From NCBI GenBank assembly GCA_003220225.1, contig QHRU01000051.1, positions 1-64,000 on the forward strand: a DNA stretch of 64,000 nucleotides. The letters are read 5' to 3'. Below are positions 3,236-11,052 of the stretch, one piece after another; position 1 is the first letter of the stretch; each line of letters begins with the position of its first letter. The stretch is from Candidatus Rokuibacteriota bacterium. Its GTDB lineage: Bacteria; Methylomirabilota; Methylomirabilia; Rokubacteriales; CSP1-6. A model generated the notes under the pieces. That model searched no databases. It was not told the DNA's origin and saw only the letters and a list, made by a program, of their open reading frames with translations. Both the position numbers and the translations under genes were made by a program.

Positions 3236-4219
3236 TCAGCCCCCCGCCGGCGGCTCGATGTGGCCGCCGAACTTGTGACGCATCGCCGACAGGACCCGCT
3301 CCGCGAACGTGTGCTCCTGGCGCGATCGGAACCGGGCGAACAGCGAGGCCGAGAGCACGTTCACGGACACGCCCTCCTCGATCGCCGCGATCAGCGTCCA
3401 GCGTCCTTCCCCCGAATCCTGGACGACGCCGGTGAAGTTGGAGAGGCTCGGATTCTCGACGAGCGCCTGCGCCGTCAGGTCGAGGAGCCAGGAGGACACG
3501 ACCGAGCCGCGCCGCCACACCTCCGTGATGTCGGGGATGTTCAGCTCGTAACGAAGGTCGGGCTCGAGATCCGTCGAGCCGGCGTTCTTGAAGACGTCGA
3601 GTCCCTCCGCGTAGGCCTGCATCAAGCCATACTCGATCCCGTTGTGGATCATCTTGACGAAGTGACCCGCGCCCGACGGCCCGCAGTAGAGATAGCCGTG
3701 CTCCGCGGTCCCCGAGAGCTTCTCGCGCCCGGGGGTGCGCGCGATCGTGCCCATCCCCGGCGCGAGCGTCCGGAAGATCGGGTCGAGACGCTCGACCACG
3801 TCCTGCTCGCCGCCGAGCATGAGGCAGTAGCCCCGCTCGAGCCCCCAGACACCGCCGCTGGTGCCGACATCGACGTAGTGGATCTTCCTGCCACGCAGGA
3901 TCTTCATCCGGCGGACATCGTCCTTGTAGAAGGAGTTCCCGCCGTCGATGATCGTGTCGCCCGGCTCCAGGCTCTCCGCCAGCTCCATGACGACCTGCTC
4001 GGTGGCTGCCCCCGCCGGCACCATCACCCACGCGACGCGCGGCGCCTTCAGGATGGTCGCGAAGTCCTTCAGCGTCGTGGTGCCCTTGGCCCCTTCGCTC
4101 ACGAGCTGCTGCACGGCCTTGGAGTCGGTCGCGAAGCCGACGACCTCGTGCCCGCCCCGCAGGAGCCGCCGCGCCATGTTGCCGCCCATTCGGCCGAGTC
4201 CAACCATTCCGATCTGCAT
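3236..4219 (-). CDS. gnd: 6-phosphogluconate dehydrogenase (decarboxylating), short form
   Basis: This enzyme oxidatively decarboxylates 6-phosphogluconate to ribulose 5-phosphate and makes NAD(P)H. The Rossmann motif [13 protein letters not shown] sits at the N-terminus, and [12 protein letters not shown] and the [11 protein letters not shown] helix are typical. At 327 residues it is the short form, usually NAD-preferring, and not the 470-residue enterobacterial form. It starts 25 nt downstream of the transketolase-transaldolase-isomerase fusion, which suits its pathway role. The cofactor preference is inferred from length only. Confidence 0.93.
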
Positions 4220-4244: not shown

Positions 4245-7200
4245 TCAGGCGATCGCCTGCTCGATGGTCGCGCGCAGCTTCTTGAGTCCGGCCGCCACGT
4301 CCGATCCCAGGTGCACCCGCAGCGCGCGGCGGCCCCGCTCCTCGAGCACCTCGAGGTCGCCGCGGGCCTGCGCCGCCTTCACCACGCCGAACGTGTATGT
4401 CTGTCCCGGCACCGGCAGATCCGCCGCGTCGTCGCAGGTGATCTGCAGGAAGACCCCCGAGCTCGGGCCGCCCTTGTAGGCCTGGCCGGTCGAGTGAAGG
4501 AAGCGCGGGCCGAAGCCGACGCAGGTGGCGACCTTGTATCGGTCACGGATCGCCGTCCGCATCTTCTGCAGCTCGGCCTCGTGCGCGTCCGTCATCTCGA
4601 TGTACGCCAGCAGGGCGACGTAGTCATTGGCCTTGACCCTGGCCAGATGCCGCGCGAGCTGCGCGGCAACGTTGCGGTCGTCGATGCGGAGCAGCGTCTC
4701 GGGGGGCAGCGTACCGGTCCTCTCGTATTCGGTGGTCAGCTTGCGCGTCGCCGTCTTGCTCGCCTCGACATCCGGCTGGTTGAACGTGTTGATCCCGAGC
4801 ACGGCGCCGGCCACCGCCGTGGCGAATTCCCAGCGGAAGAACTCCGCGCCGAGGTCGTAGGGATCTTCGATCTCGATACGCACCACCGGCTGGCCGGCCG
4901 CCTCCAGCGCGGTGACGTGCTCATCCTGACGCGCGTCGGGCGCCGACGCCAGACGGACGTAGACGAACAACCGGTCAGCTCCGTACGCGGCGGGGGCGCC
5001 GAGCGGCTCGCGGTCGACGGGGACGAGCCCCTGGCCTTCCTTGCCCGTGGACTCGGCGATGAGCTGTTCGAGCCATGCGCCGAGGGTGTGGATCGCGGGC
5101 GAGGTGATCAGCGTCACCTTGTCGCGACCGTGGGTGCCGAGGACGCCCATGACGATGCCCAGCACCGCGCCGGGGTTTTCCTGGACGGGCACCGACGAGG
5201 CGCAGGCCTTGGCCATCTGGTCGGCCTGGCCGAGGAAACGGGCGACGTCGATGCCCATGACGGCCGCGGGCACCAGGCCGAAGTCGGAGAGCGCCGAGAA
5301 GCGGCCGCCGATCGACGGCAGGCCGAAGAACACGTGGCGGAAGCGATCCGCCTCCGCGACCCGGTGCAGCTTCGATCCCGGATCGGTGATGGCGATGAAG
5401 CGGCTGCCGACGCGGTCGGGGCCGACGACCTCGCGGGTGCGCTCGAAGAAGTACTGCTTGAAGATGTTCGGCTCGAGGGTGCTGCCCGACTTGCTCGAGA
5501 CGACGAAGAGCGTCTTCCCCAGATCGACCTTCCGCTCGACAGCCTTGATCTGCGCGGGATCGGTCGAGTCCAGCACGTGCAGCTCCGGGTGGCCCGCGAT
5601 CTTGCCGAAGGTCATCTTGAGGACCTCCGGGCAGAGGCTCGAGCCGCCCATGCCGAGCAGCAGCACGTGGCCGACACCGCTGCTCCTGGCGTCGGCCTGG
5701 ATCTTGTGGAGATGGTCGATGTTGGCGATCTGGTCGTCGGTGATGCCGAGCCAGCCGAGCCAGTCGGCCTCGTCCGACCCGGTCCACAGCGTGGCGTCGC
5801 GCGCCCACAGGCGCCGCACCTTGCCGCCGGTCTCCCAGTCGCGGACCACCGTGCGGACGGCAGCGTCGAGGTCGGGCGGCAGCGTGACGGTCTGGCGCTT
5901 GACCAGCTCGGGGGAGGCGAAGCGCTTGGACACCGCCGCGATCAGCTTGACGAAGGCGTCGACGAAGATCTTGACACCCTCGTTGAGCAGCGTGTCGGTG
6001 ACCGCCGTCATGGAGATGCCGACCTTCTCGAGCGTCTGCATCGTGTCGGCCGCCTCCTCGAGGTTCGCCTCGAGGCTGGCGCGGGGCCGCCCGTGGTCGC
6101 GGAACGCGTCGAAGGTCGCGGGCGGGATCGTGTTGACGGTGTCCTTGCCGATCAGCTCCTCGACGTAGACGACGTCCCGGTAGTTCGCGTTCTTGGTGGA
6201 CGTCGAGGCCCACAGGAGCCGCTGTGTCTGCGCGCCCCTGGCGGCCAGCGCCTGCCAGCGCGGGCCCGCGTAGATCTCCTTGTAGCGCTGGTAGGTGAGC
6301 TTGGCGTTGGCGATCGCCACCTTGCCGAGCAGGCCCTTGAGGAGCGCCGCTTCCATGGCGTCCGTCGAGGTCTTCAGCCGCTCGCCGACCCTGGCGTCGA
6401 TCAGCGCGTCGATGCGGCTGATGAAGAAGCTGGCGACGCTCGCCACGTGGCTCACGTCGCCGCCCGCCTTGCCGAACGCCTCGAGCCCCTCGATGAAGGC
6501 GGTGGCCACGCGCTGGTACGCCTCCGGGGCGAAGAGCAGCGTCACGTTGACGTTGATGCCGTCGGCGATCAGCTGCTGGATGGCCGGGATGCCGGCGGGC
6601 GTCGCGGGCACCTTGATCATCACGTTCTCGCGCGCCACCGCCTTCCACAGCCGGCGCGCCTCGGCGGTCGTGCGCCCGGTGTCGTTGGCGAGGTCGGGTG
6701 ACACTTCGAGGCTCACGTAGCCGTCCCGCCGCCCGGTGGCCACGTAGAGGGGCGCAAGGACGTCGGCGGCTTCCTGGATGTCGCGGATCGCGAGCCGCTC
6801 GTAGACCTCCTTGGCATCGAGGTTCTTGTGGCGCTCGAGCGCCTTGAGATCGGCCTCGTAGTCGTTCGAGCCGGCGATCGCCTTCTCGAAGATCGCGGGA
6901 TTCGAGGTGACGCCCCGGAGCCCGTCCTCGTCGAGCAGCCGCTGGAGCTCGCCGCTCGTGATCAGGCTCCGGCGGATGAAGTCGAGCCAGACGGACTGGC
7001 CGTAGTTCTGCAAGATCTTCAGGGGATTCGTCTGCCGACGGCGCAGCACGGTGCGGGCCGCGTTGACGACGTTCTCGGGCGTGAACCCGAACTTCGTCTG
7101 CAGCTCTTTGAGGGGCGCGGAGGCGCCGAACGTCTTCATGGCGATGATCTCGCCGTCGGGGCCCACGTACCGCCCCCAGCCGAACGTCGACGCCTGCTCG

Positions 7201-9080
7201 ACGGCGACGCGCGCCGTGATCGACGGCGGCAGCACGCTCTCCTTGTATTTCCGGTCCTGGCGCTCGAAGAGCTCCCAGCACGGCATGCTCACCACCCGCA
7301 CCTTGAGCCCCTCCGCCGTGAGGCGCTCGTAGGCGTTCACGCAGAGCGAGACCTCGCTGCCCGAGGCGAGCAGGATGACGTCCGGCTTGCCGTCGACGGC
7401 GTCGGCGAGCACATAGGCGCCGCGCGCCACGCCACTGGCCGATCCGTACTTCGCGCGGTCGAGGGTGGGCAGCGCCTGCCGCGACAGGATCAGCGCCACG
7501 GGCTCGTGGCGCAGCGTCATGACGAGACGCCACGCCTCCACGACCTCGTTGGCGTCGCCGGGACGGATGGTCAGCAGCCCGGGAATCGCGCGCAGCGACG
7601 CGAGCTGCTCGATCGGCTGGTGGGTCGGGCCGTCCTCGCCGACGCCGATGGAGTCGTGGGTGAAGACGGAGACAACGGGCAACTCCATCAGCGCGGAGAG
7701 CCGGATGGCCGGCCGCATGTAGTCGCTGAAGATCAGGAAGCCCGAGCCGTACGCTCTGACCTTCGAGAGCGAGAGGCCGTTGAGGATCGAGCCCATCGCA
7801 TGCTCGCGGATCCCGAAGTGGAAGTTCCGCCCCTCGGGATGCGCGGCCGTGAAGTCACCCGCGCCCTCGAAGGTCAAGCGCGTCTTCGTCGAGGGCGCGA
7901 GGTCGGCGGCGCCGCCGATGAGCCACGGCGTGTTCTGGGCGAGGATGTTGAGCACCTTGGCCGAGGCATCGCGGCCGGCCACTCCCTTGGGGTCGGCGGC
8001 GAACGGCGCGAGGCCCTTGTCCCAGCCGTCGGGGAGCCGCCGGTGCTGCATCTTGAAGAGGTGGTCGGCGAGCTCGGGGTACGTGGCCCTGTACGCCTCG
8101 AACTTCGCCAGCCACGCCTCGCGCGCGGCGTGCCCGCGCGCGCCCACGCCGGCGGCGAAGTGCTCGCGCACGCCGTCGGGCACGAGGAAGCGCGCGTCCT
8201 CGGGCCAGCCATAATTCCGCTTCGTCAGCCGGATCTCTTCGTCGCCCAGCGGCTCGCCGTGCGCGGCGTGGGTGTCCTGCTTGTTGGGCGCGCCCCAGGC
8301 GATGTGGCTGTCCACGATGACGAGGGTGGGCCGGTCGCGCGTCGTCCGAAAGGTCGTGAAGGCGCGCTCGAGCATCTCGAGGTCGTTGGCGTCGCCGACG
8401 CGCGTCACGTTCCAGCCGTAGGAGATGAAGCGCGTCGCCACGTCTTCGCTGAAGGCCCACTCGGTGTGGCCCTCGATCGTGATCTTGTTGTTGTCGTAGA
8501 CCCAGCACAGGTTGGCGAGCTTCAGGTGGCCGGCGAGCGAGGCGGCCTCGCTCGAGACGCCCTCCATCATGCAGCCGTCCCCGGCGAGCGCGTAGACGTC
8601 GTAATCGAACATCTCGAAGCCCGGACGGTTGAAATGGCTGGCCATCCACTTCGCCGCGATCGCCATGCCGACGCTGGTGGCGACGCCCTGGCCGAGCGGC
8701 CCCGTCGTCGTCTCGACCCCCGACGTCCAGCGGTACTCGGGGTGACCGGGGCACTTGCTGTCGAGCTGGCGAAAGCGCTTGATGTCATCGAGCGTGACCG
8801 AGAGCTGGCCCAGGCGCTCGTACTGCGGGTTCACCGCCTTGACGCCCGTGAGGTGGAGCATCGAGTACAGCAGCATCGAGGCGTGGCCGATCGAGAGCAC
8901 GAACCGATCGCGGTTGGGCCAGATCGGGTCGTCGGGATCGAACCTCAGGAAGCGTTGCCAGAGCGTGTAGACGACGGGCGCCATGGCCATCGCGGTCCCG
9001 GGATGGCCCGAGTTCGCCTGCTGGACGGCGTCCATCGCGAGGGTGCGGATCGTGTTGATCGAGAGCTGGTCGTGGTTCAC
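4245..9080 (-). CDS. tkt-tal-pgi: transketolase-transaldolase-glucose-6-phosphate isomerase triple fusion
   Basis: One uninterrupted 1611-residue reading frame joins three enzymes. Residues 1 to about 675 are transketolase: [12 protein letters not shown] near 24, GDGCMMEG at 167-174, NN at 197-198 and a later GEDGPTHQP. From about 684 the sequence is transaldolase ([11 protein letters not shown] at 685, [10 protein letters not shown], Schiff-base Lys823 in VMIKVPAT). From about 1060 it is phosphoglucose isomerase ([22 protein letters not shown], Lys1536 in [10 protein letters not shown]). Fused transaldolase-isomerase proteins are known; an added transketolase is unusual. No stop occurs at the junction, and transaldolase has lost its own ATG. 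The GTG start (9078-9080) lies one base after zwf, whose tail supplies the GGGAGGA ribosome-binding site. Confidence 0.93.
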
Positions 9081-9081
9081 G

Positions 9082-11052
9082 CTATCCTCCCATCAGCAAC
9101 CTCACCTGCCGATCGAACGCCTGCTCGGCGGCGATATTCACCTTGTAGCGCGCCTTCGACGCCTCCAGAATCGACCGCGCGAACTCGGGATGGTCACGAA
9201 GCACGCGGTTGAAGTCGCGCTGGTCGAGCACGAAGAGGTCGCAGTACTCCCTGGCGCGGACGGAGGCGGTGCGAGGCTCGGAGAGGAGCAGGCTGATCTC
9301 GCCGAAGAAGCTGCCGGCGCCGAGCGTCGCGAGGGCCGTGCCGTCCCGGTCGAGGACCTCGACCTCACCGTTCACCAGGACGTACATCTCGCGGCCGATG
9401 TCGCCCTTCCTGACGATCAAGTCGCCGGGCGCGTACACTTCCGGCTTGAGCGCCATGGCGATGTTGTGCTGGAAGATGGCGTCACAGGCCGAAAAGAGCG
9501 GCACTTGCTCGATCACGCTGCGGTTGACGACCTCGAGCCACTTGCGGCCGTCGCGCTCGATCAGGTCGAAGGCGGCCTTCGGTCCCCACGATCCCGCGGG
9601 GTAGTTCGGGAAGTCCTCGGCGGGGCTGGCCGCCCAGACGTCCAGGATGGGCTGGGCGATCTTCCAGGCCGACTCCACCAGATCCGTCCGTGAGAAGAGC
9701 ATCGCGTCGCCGAGCATGCAGTGGTAGAGCAGCACCTCGTAGCCCGTCGCGCGCGCCGCCTGGAACGCCTCCCGGTAGTCGAAGCGCATGTTGACCTTCT
9801 GGAGATTCATGGACGGGCCGGGGTGCTTGGCCTGAAAGCGGACCTCGATCTCCTGATCGGGCTGGATGTGGAAGATGAGCTGGTTCGACTCCAGCCGCTC
9901 CATGGCCGGGGTCTCGCGGAAGATGACCTCGGGCGCTTTCTTGAGCTGCACGAGGATCTCCGTCCCGCGTCGCCAGAGCGCCTTGCCCGACCGGAGGTAG
10001 ATCGGCACGCCCTCCCACCGCCAGTTGTCGATGAAGACCTTGATGGCGGCGAAGGTTTCCGTGCGGGACTGCGGGTCGACCTGTGGCTCCTGCCGGTACC
10101 CCACCGCGTCCGTGCCGTCGGCTTTACGACCGCGGCCGTACTGTCCGCGCACCGTGTTGGTCAGCACGTCCTCCGGACGCATGATCCGCACGGCGTCCAG
10201 CACCTTCGCCTTCTCGTTGCGGATGGCCTCCGGCCTGAAGGAGATGGGCGGCTCCATGCAGAGGTAGGCGAGCATCTGGAACATGTGGTTCTGGATCATG
10301 TCGCGCACCACGCCCGCGCGCTCGTAGTAGCGGCCGCGCCCCTCGACGCCCACCGTCTCGGCCACCGCGAGCTGGATGTGGTCGATGTGGTTCCGGTTCC
10401 ACAGCGGCTCGAACATTCCGTTGGAGAAGCGGAAGGCCAGGAGGTTCTGGACCGTCTCCTTCCCGAGGTAATGGTCGATGCGGTAGATCTGGTCCTCGCG
10501 CCAGTGCTTCAGCAGCTCGCGGGACAGCTCGATGGCCGAGGCCAGGTCGTGGCCGAACGGCTTTTCCACGACGACCCGTCGCCAGCCACGGTCGGCCGCC
10601 GTTCCGCCCGCGCGCGCGAGGTGCGCGGAGATGAGACCGAAGAGCGGCGGCGGCACCGCCAGGTAGTAGAGGACGTTGCCCTCGGTCTGCCACTCGCCGT
10701 CCAGCTGCGTGACGAGGGCCGCGATGCGCGCGTACGTCGTCGCGTCCTCGAACGCGCCGGGGCTGTAGGAGAGGTGGCGGACGAAATCGCTCCAGACCTC
10801 GTCGTCGAACTGCTTGCGGGTCGAGAACTGGCGGATGTCCGTCGACATCTTCGCGCGGAACTGCTCGGTCGTCAGCTCGTCCATCGCCACGCCGACCAGC
10901 GCGAACCGCTTGGGCAGGAGACCGTCGCACGCCAGGTTGTAGAGGGCCGGCATCAGGAGCCGCCTGGTGAGATCGCCGGAGGCCCCGAACATGACCATCA
11001 CGCACGGCTGCCCCGTGGGCGCCGCAGAATCGGCAGACCGGTCGAGGGTCAC
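9082..11052 (-). CDS. zwf: glucose-6-phosphate dehydrogenase with C-terminal cyclic-nucleotide-binding domain
   Basis: The first 505 or so residues are a normal G6PDH, oxidising glucose 6-phosphate to 6-phosphogluconolactone: coenzyme motif GASGDLT near 28, active-site RIDHYLGKE, and the C-terminal YPAGSWGPKAA segment. Residues about 509-656 form an extra cNMP-binding domain with RKGDIGREMY and a complete phosphate-binding cassette, FGEISLLL then PRTASV (Glu585, Arg594). The RKGDIGREMY wording recalls cyclic-nucleotide-gated channels more than CRP. The usual family length is about 490-510, so the extra 145 residues are a real fusion. The start is a GTG with no ribosome-binding site and a TATACT hexamer 6 nt upstream. 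Allosteric control by cAMP or cGMP is inferred. Confidence 0.93.
   Translation of the reverse strand: MTLDRSADSAAPTGQPCVMVMFGASGDLTRRLLMPALYNLACDGLLPKRFALVGVAMDELTTEQFRAKMSTDIRQFSTRKQFDDEVWSDFVRHLSYSPGAFEDATTYARIAALVTQLDGEWQTEGNVLYYLAVPPPLFGLISAHLARAGGTAADRGWRRVVVEKPFGHDLASAIELSRELLKHWREDQIYRIDHYLGKETVQNLLAFRFSNGMFEPLWNRNHIDHIQLAVAETVGVEGRGRYYERAGVVRDMIQNHMFQMLAYLCMEPPISFRPEAIRNEKAKVLDAVRIMRPEDVLTNTVRGQYGRGRKADGTDAVGYRQEPQVDPQSRTETFAAIKVFIDNWRWEGVPIYLRSGKALWRRGTEILVQLKKAPEVIFRETPAMERLESNQLIFHIQPDQEIEVRFQAKHPGPSMNLQKVNMRFDYREAFQAARATGYEVLLYHCMLGDAMLFSRTDLVESAWKIAQPILDVWAASPAEDFPNYPAGSWGPKAAFDLIERDGRKWLEVVNRSVIEQVPLFSACDAIFQHNIAMALKPEVYAPGDLIVRKGDIGREMYVLVNGEVEVLDRDGTALATLGAGSFFGEISLLLSEPRTASVRAREYCDLFVLDQRDFNRVLRDHPEFARSILEASKARYKVNIAAEQAFDRQVRLLMGG

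Follow-up and report, generated by a model that had tools for sequence, protein, structure and literature searches.

A glucose-6-phosphate dehydrogenase fused to a putative cyclic-nucleotide-binding domain in Rokubacteria and other bacterial phyla

Glucose-6-phosphate dehydrogenase (G6PDH), encoded by zwf, commits glucose-6-phosphate to the production of NADPH and pentoses, and the known controls of the bacterial enzyme are product inhibition, redox/OpcA regulation and transcription. The window analysed here, a 64,000-nucleotide stretch of Candidatus Rokuibacteriota contig QHRU01000051.1, encodes on the minus strand at positions 9082–11052 a G6PDH whose chain continues into a cyclic-nucleotide-binding domain (CNBD). 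The locus raises the question of whether this domain is a genuine part of the enzyme and whether a second messenger could act through it on entry into the pentose-phosphate pathway.

Two domains in a single reading frame

The fusion gene is one ORF that runs for 656 codons from a GTG to a TAG stop, with no internal stop and no frame break; its coordinates describe the ORF, and the true start may be the internal Met19. Pfam and NCBIfam recognised two families within this frame, G6PDH and then a CNBD. The G6PDH part (residues 16–506; positions 9535–11007, minus strand) contains the motifs GASGDL (23–28) and RIDHYLGKE (191–199) and the catalytic His256. It matched G6PD_N at residues 20–203 (E 2e-62) and G6PD_C at 205–505 (E 1.9e-117), and it scored 604.2 bits against the NCBIfam zwf equivalog TIGR00871 (cut-off 400.6), with residues 16–507 covering model positions 2–485 of 486. 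The dinucleotide-binding residues G23, G26 and D27, together with D193, H194, K198 and H256, are present in the window protein and conserved in the fused proteins, as are R354 and K357. By motif, we take D193-H194, K198 and H256 to correspond to Asp177, His178, Lys182 and His240 of the Leuconostoc enzyme. The AlphaFold2 model of the window protein (pLDDT 83.2, pTM 0.83), which like all models used here is a monomer without an interdomain error estimate, matched solved G6PDH structures in Foldseek.

The CNBD comprises residues 520–636 (positions 9145–9495, minus strand). Its match to cNMP_binding (PF00027) at residues 538–621 reached E 1.1e-22 and 80.2 bits, against a gathering cut-off of 27.5, and the AlphaFold2 model contains helix A, the β-roll, the helix of the phosphate-binding cassette, and the B and C helices; modelled alone, the domain gave a mean pLDDT of 92.5. 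The phosphate-binding cassette, FGEISLLLSEPRTAS (residues 583–597, including E585, R594 and T595; positions 9262–9306, minus strand), follows the pattern of cyclic-nucleotide (cNMP) pockets, G-E-x8-R-(S/T)-A, with G584, E585, R594, T595 and A596, and the C-helix supplies Arg635 (positions 9148–9150, minus strand) as the probable base cap. Across 50 fused proteins, G584, E585, R594, A596 and R635 are invariant (R635 in 50 of 50), apart from one masked letter at R594 and one at A596; the mean column entropy of the CNBD in this set is 1.64 bits. These results agree with the preliminary description, which had placed a cNMP cassette after a full-length G6PDH and had correctly numbered its motifs RKGDIGREMY (548–557), FGE (583–585) and PRTASV (593–598), with Glu585 and Arg594; the resemblance to channel CNBDs proposed there was also borne out, since the SthK, CNG and HCN channels were the top structural matches in Foldseek.

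The putative pocket would be expected to bind cAMP or cGMP. Thr at the position equivalent to T595 favours cGMP in CNG and HCN channels and in PKG, and T595 makes cGMP a possible ligand; this position is variable among the fused proteins (T, S, N, A or V), and for that reason we do not call a nucleotide preference. Cyclic dinucleotides are less likely ligands, because the pocket is of the 3',5'-cNMP type. The window protein matched the mycobacterial Pat model NF058543 at 37.6 bits (cut-off 460), in the CNBD stretch only, and a Pfam search of the protein returned no match to the GNAT domain that characterises Pat.

The two domains are joined by a linker (residues 507–524; positions 9481–9534, minus strand) in which AlphaFold2 placed helices at 511–515 and 518–521. 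It lacks a low-complexity spacer, and its residues E507, L514, P518 and F520 are conserved among the fused proteins, as would be expected if the CNBD were coupled to the enzyme and not just tethered to it. In nine pairs, dN/dS was 0.05–0.50 for the CNBD and 0.02–0.21 for G6PDH; the CNBD value exceeded that of G6PDH in most pairs, and two CNBD values lay near 0.5. Both domains are therefore under purifying selection, the constraint on the CNBD being weaker but real. Taken together, residue conservation, structural models and selection make both halves look functional.

Distribution and origin of the fusion

In a scan of GTDB-representative contigs, about 50 records proved to carry the fusion; they come from independent assemblies and span about six phyla, namely Rokubacteria, Planctomycetota, Myxococcota, Pseudomonadota, Acidobacteriota and Verrucomicrobiota. 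Some 45 further records beyond the window carry both domains at 54–83% identity, and an isolate, Tautonia sociabilis, is among the carriers. The fusion is nevertheless sporadic, occurring in 5 of 95 genomes of the window's phylum (one copy, in genome G035, being frame-split) and in 6 of 392 Planctomycetota, counts that rest on E-value thresholds and may miss very divergent fusions. The frame-split copy looks like an error in G035 itself. Long in-frame upstream extensions of three fused genes (L045, L057 and the Tautonia gene L059) were considered as a possible extra domain, but by eye they appear to be spurious high-GC frame.

In a tree of the G6PDH part (108 rows, built with a short search), all 50 fused proteins formed one clade with SH-aLRT support of 100. 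The nearest unfused row, L013, comes from a class-mate of the window's genome. The window protein and that of G025 branch near the base of the clade, in an order that is not firm, and those of two genomes from the same family (G018 and G033) lie deep in another branch, adjoining a Phycisphaerales metagenome-assembled genome (MAG). From the tree and these counts, the fusion seems to have arisen once and then to have been passed on horizontally, and lost, in a sporadic manner; this reading covers the rows found with the window protein as query, so that a separate fusion on a distant G6PDH could be missed. Four records filed under Bifidobacterium breve or Candidatus Kuenenia stuttgartiensis (L061, L051, L052 and L068) have proteobacterial/myxococcal or Planctomycetaceae neighbours in the tree, and their species labels are probably wrong; several fusion MAGs seem to be mislabelled, which makes the labels of single MAGs uncertain.

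The preliminary description had allowed for a sequencing error that joined two genes and had suggested a search for the fusion in related genomes; the fusion was found there and well beyond related lineages, and the recurrence of the same junction in about 50 independent records excludes such an error. More broadly, the possibility that a sequencing or assembly error, or the loss of a stop codon, brought neighbouring genes together is vanishingly small. The frame-split copy in G035 is the one observation in its favour, and the window itself offers none. Against it stand the clade formed by the independent records, with an isolate genome among them, and the purifying selection on both halves. 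Furthermore, no CNBD was found downstream of zwf in L013, L132 and L133, the nearest unfused relatives (62–67% identity). The same result led us to reject an origin by fission for these unfused zwf genes, which seem either to predate the fusion or to have lost the CNBD cleanly.

Neighbouring genes, cyclases and other G6PDH copies

One nucleotide past the stop codon of the fusion lies a single ORF of 1611 aa (positions 4245–9080, minus strand) that encodes transketolase, transaldolase and phosphoglucose isomerase; a GGAGG stands 5 nt ahead of its GTG, still within the last part of the fusion gene. It is followed by the 6-phosphogluconate dehydrogenase gene gnd (positions 3236–4219, minus strand; PF03446 and PF00393). 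The fusion likely heads a pentose-phosphate operon with these two ORFs. Among the 95 phylum genomes, the full-length triple fusion is restricted to the window's genome and G025 (88% identity); tkt and tal-pgi are separate ORFs in the remaining ones. Two other frames of about 1560–1625 aa (G014:C110:9783-13592 and G033:C29:2616-6416) match residues 365–1609 of the triple fusion at 42–43%, and each is followed by an unfused zwf; these are perhaps a second, independent multi-enzyme fusion. ORF clustering across phyla revealed no conserved neighbourhood around fused zwf: gnd or tkt recurs at a few loci only, alongside lineage-specific blocks, and no cyclase appears among the recurrent neighbours. 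Gene neighbourhood was consequently discarded as a functional clue, the neighbours differing between phyla.

Cyclic-nucleotide signalling is rich in the window's genome, which gave 21 matches to class III cyclases and contains about 10 proteins with a CNBD. Each of the other fusion genomes searched (24 of 24) has at least two class III cyclase matches. Cyclases were likewise present in 53 of the 60 genomes of the lineage that were searched, fused or unfused. Since most unfused relatives also have them, the presence of a cyclase is permissive and non-diagnostic for CNBD function, and we rejected it as a discriminating test. A loose motif regular expression run over eight cyclase loci inspected in the window's genome retrieved L119 and L121. 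The L121 cyclase, alone among the eight, carries the full set of metal, substrate and transition-state motifs (SDIRDFT ... DKYIGDAVM ... FDYTVIGDEVNLGARLE). In the L119 cyclase, Gln replaces the substrate Lys.

In 9 of the 25 fusion genomes (G025, G061, G064, G065, G067, G068, G075, G076 and G078), no G6PDH other than the fusion was found, which indirectly backs the predicted activity of the fused enzyme on glucose-6-phosphate with NADP+ or NAD+. None of these nine genomes gave an OpcA match. OpcA occurs in 8 of the 25 fusion genomes, all eight of which also encode an unfused G6PDH; in five (G060, G063, G072, G073 and G077) no more than about 1 kb separates it from the unfused zwf, and in none of the fusion genomes searched does it lie beside the fused gene. 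The window's genome carries another zwf, which is unfused (G000:C96:72499-73983, 47% identity), and gave no match to OpcA (PF10128), the protein on which an OpcA-dependent G6PDH would rely. With OpcA beside unfused zwf and missing from sole-fusion genomes, its distribution is more informative than that of the cyclases and fits a division of labour in which OpcA serves the ordinary G6PDH and the built-in CNBD serves the fused one; the strength of these OpcA and G6PDH absences is limited by MAG incompleteness.

Proposed mechanism and relation to known systems

We propose that the CNBD probably controls G6PDH in cis, as an allosteric module responding to cAMP and/or cGMP. The class III cyclases of the cell would make cAMP and/or cGMP, which would bind between the β-roll (E585 and R594) and the C-helix (R635), and the C-helix would close over the bound nucleotide. 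This movement, passed on by the short helical linker, would reach the C-terminal region of the G6PDH oligomer and change the activity of the enzyme, so that entry into the pentose-phosphate pathway, with its supply of NADPH and pentoses, would be coupled to a second messenger without transcription. The fusion itself, its two intact sites, their conservation, the selection on both halves and the presence of cyclases are observed; nucleotide binding, the identity of the nucleotide, the coupling of the domains and the direction of the effect are all elements that we infer. Activation by the nucleotide would be mildly favoured over inhibition, for the single reason of the analogy with Bd1971, discussed below.

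The domain could instead have lost nucleotide sensing, either taking another small-molecule ligand or serving as a structural appendage, in the manner of the non-nucleotide members that exist in the CRP/FNR superfamily. The higher dN/dS of the CNBD in most pairs and the variation at position 595 would suit such a loss. We nevertheless regard it as quite improbable, because lost binding would free the pocket residues, whereas the Gly-Glu...Arg signature and the C-helix Arg are invariant in 50 sequences and rank with the best-conserved residues of the CNBD; moreover, the spacing of the pocket equals that of the cNMP-binding proteins Clr and Bd1971. It also appears unlikely that the CNBD binds nucleotide with little catalytic effect, its main output being assembly of the tetramer or docking to the neighbouring triple-enzyme protein. 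With that protein encoded 1 nt away, channelling is conceivable, and CNBDs often act through oligomer interfaces, as in the Bd1971 dimer (PMC6717892). However, the full-length partner is confined to two genomes of the phylum and, in other phyla, tkt, tal or pgi neighbours are missing from most fused zwf loci, which indicates that the CNBD is conserved independently of the triple fusion.

Gating of G6PDH by the CNBD hence remains the preferred reading. The broader proposition, that the fused enzymes form a single-origin, horizontally spread class of G6PDH gated by cAMP/cGMP, which is the sole G6PDH in some lineages and replaces OpcA as regulator, is held with somewhat less assurance, at slightly better than even. 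If true, the CNBD would connect cyclic-nucleotide signalling straight to central metabolism, and a second messenger would decide how much glucose-6-phosphate enters glycolysis and how much is diverted to making NADPH. The domain would also provide a target for some of the many orphan class III cyclases of soil, groundwater and lake bacteria, and a ready cAMP-controlled metabolic valve for engineering. A search of 5.39 million open-access papers yielded no description of a cNMP-gated G6PDH, although a passing mention may exist elsewhere, in keeping with the initial remark that such control is not an established mechanism.

A cAMP-sensing CNBD is fused to an enzyme in the mycobacterial lysine acetyltransferase Pat, which differs from the fusion in its GNAT domain, its N-terminal CNBD and its indirect action on metabolic enzymes through acetylation. 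Bd1971 of Bdellovibrio bacteriovorus is an enzyme with a CNBD whose activity rises about 8-fold with cAMP or cGMP (PMC6717892). As in the fusion, the CNBD lies in the enzyme chain, and the distance from Arg67 to the Arg108 cap is 41 residues, the same as from R594 to R635; unlike the fusion, a dehydrogenase with a C-terminal CNBD, Bd1971 has a c-di-GMP phosphodiesterase (EAL) output and an N-terminal CNBD (PMC6717892). In the cAMP/cGMP receptor Clr, the pocket is formed by G85, E86, R95 and S96, with E86 and R95 nine residues apart, like E585 and R594 (PMC10127613). A thioredoxin reductase from the Atlantis II brine of the Red Sea, close to Cupriavidus, also combines a CNBD, recognised from sequence, with an NADPH-linked enzyme; it is a different enzyme with an N-terminal CNBD and is not known to be regulated by nucleotides (PMC6544261). 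The OpcA-G6PDH pair of cyanobacteria resembles the fusion in that a dedicated protein module tunes a bacterial G6PDH, but OpcA is a separate, redox-sensitive protein and not a CNBD (PMC13071761; PDB 9emm). The closest solved CNBD is that of SthK (PDB 6cju, 6cjt and 4d7s), with 44–45% identity; the entries that superpose best do so at an rmsd of 1.2–1.5 Å across about 125 columns. The Foldseek matches include cAMP/cGMP-bound SthK, whose output, unlike that of the fusion, is an ion channel. CNBD-enzyme fusions are thus already known, and we rate the pairing of a CNBD with G6PDH as new and physiologically consequential.
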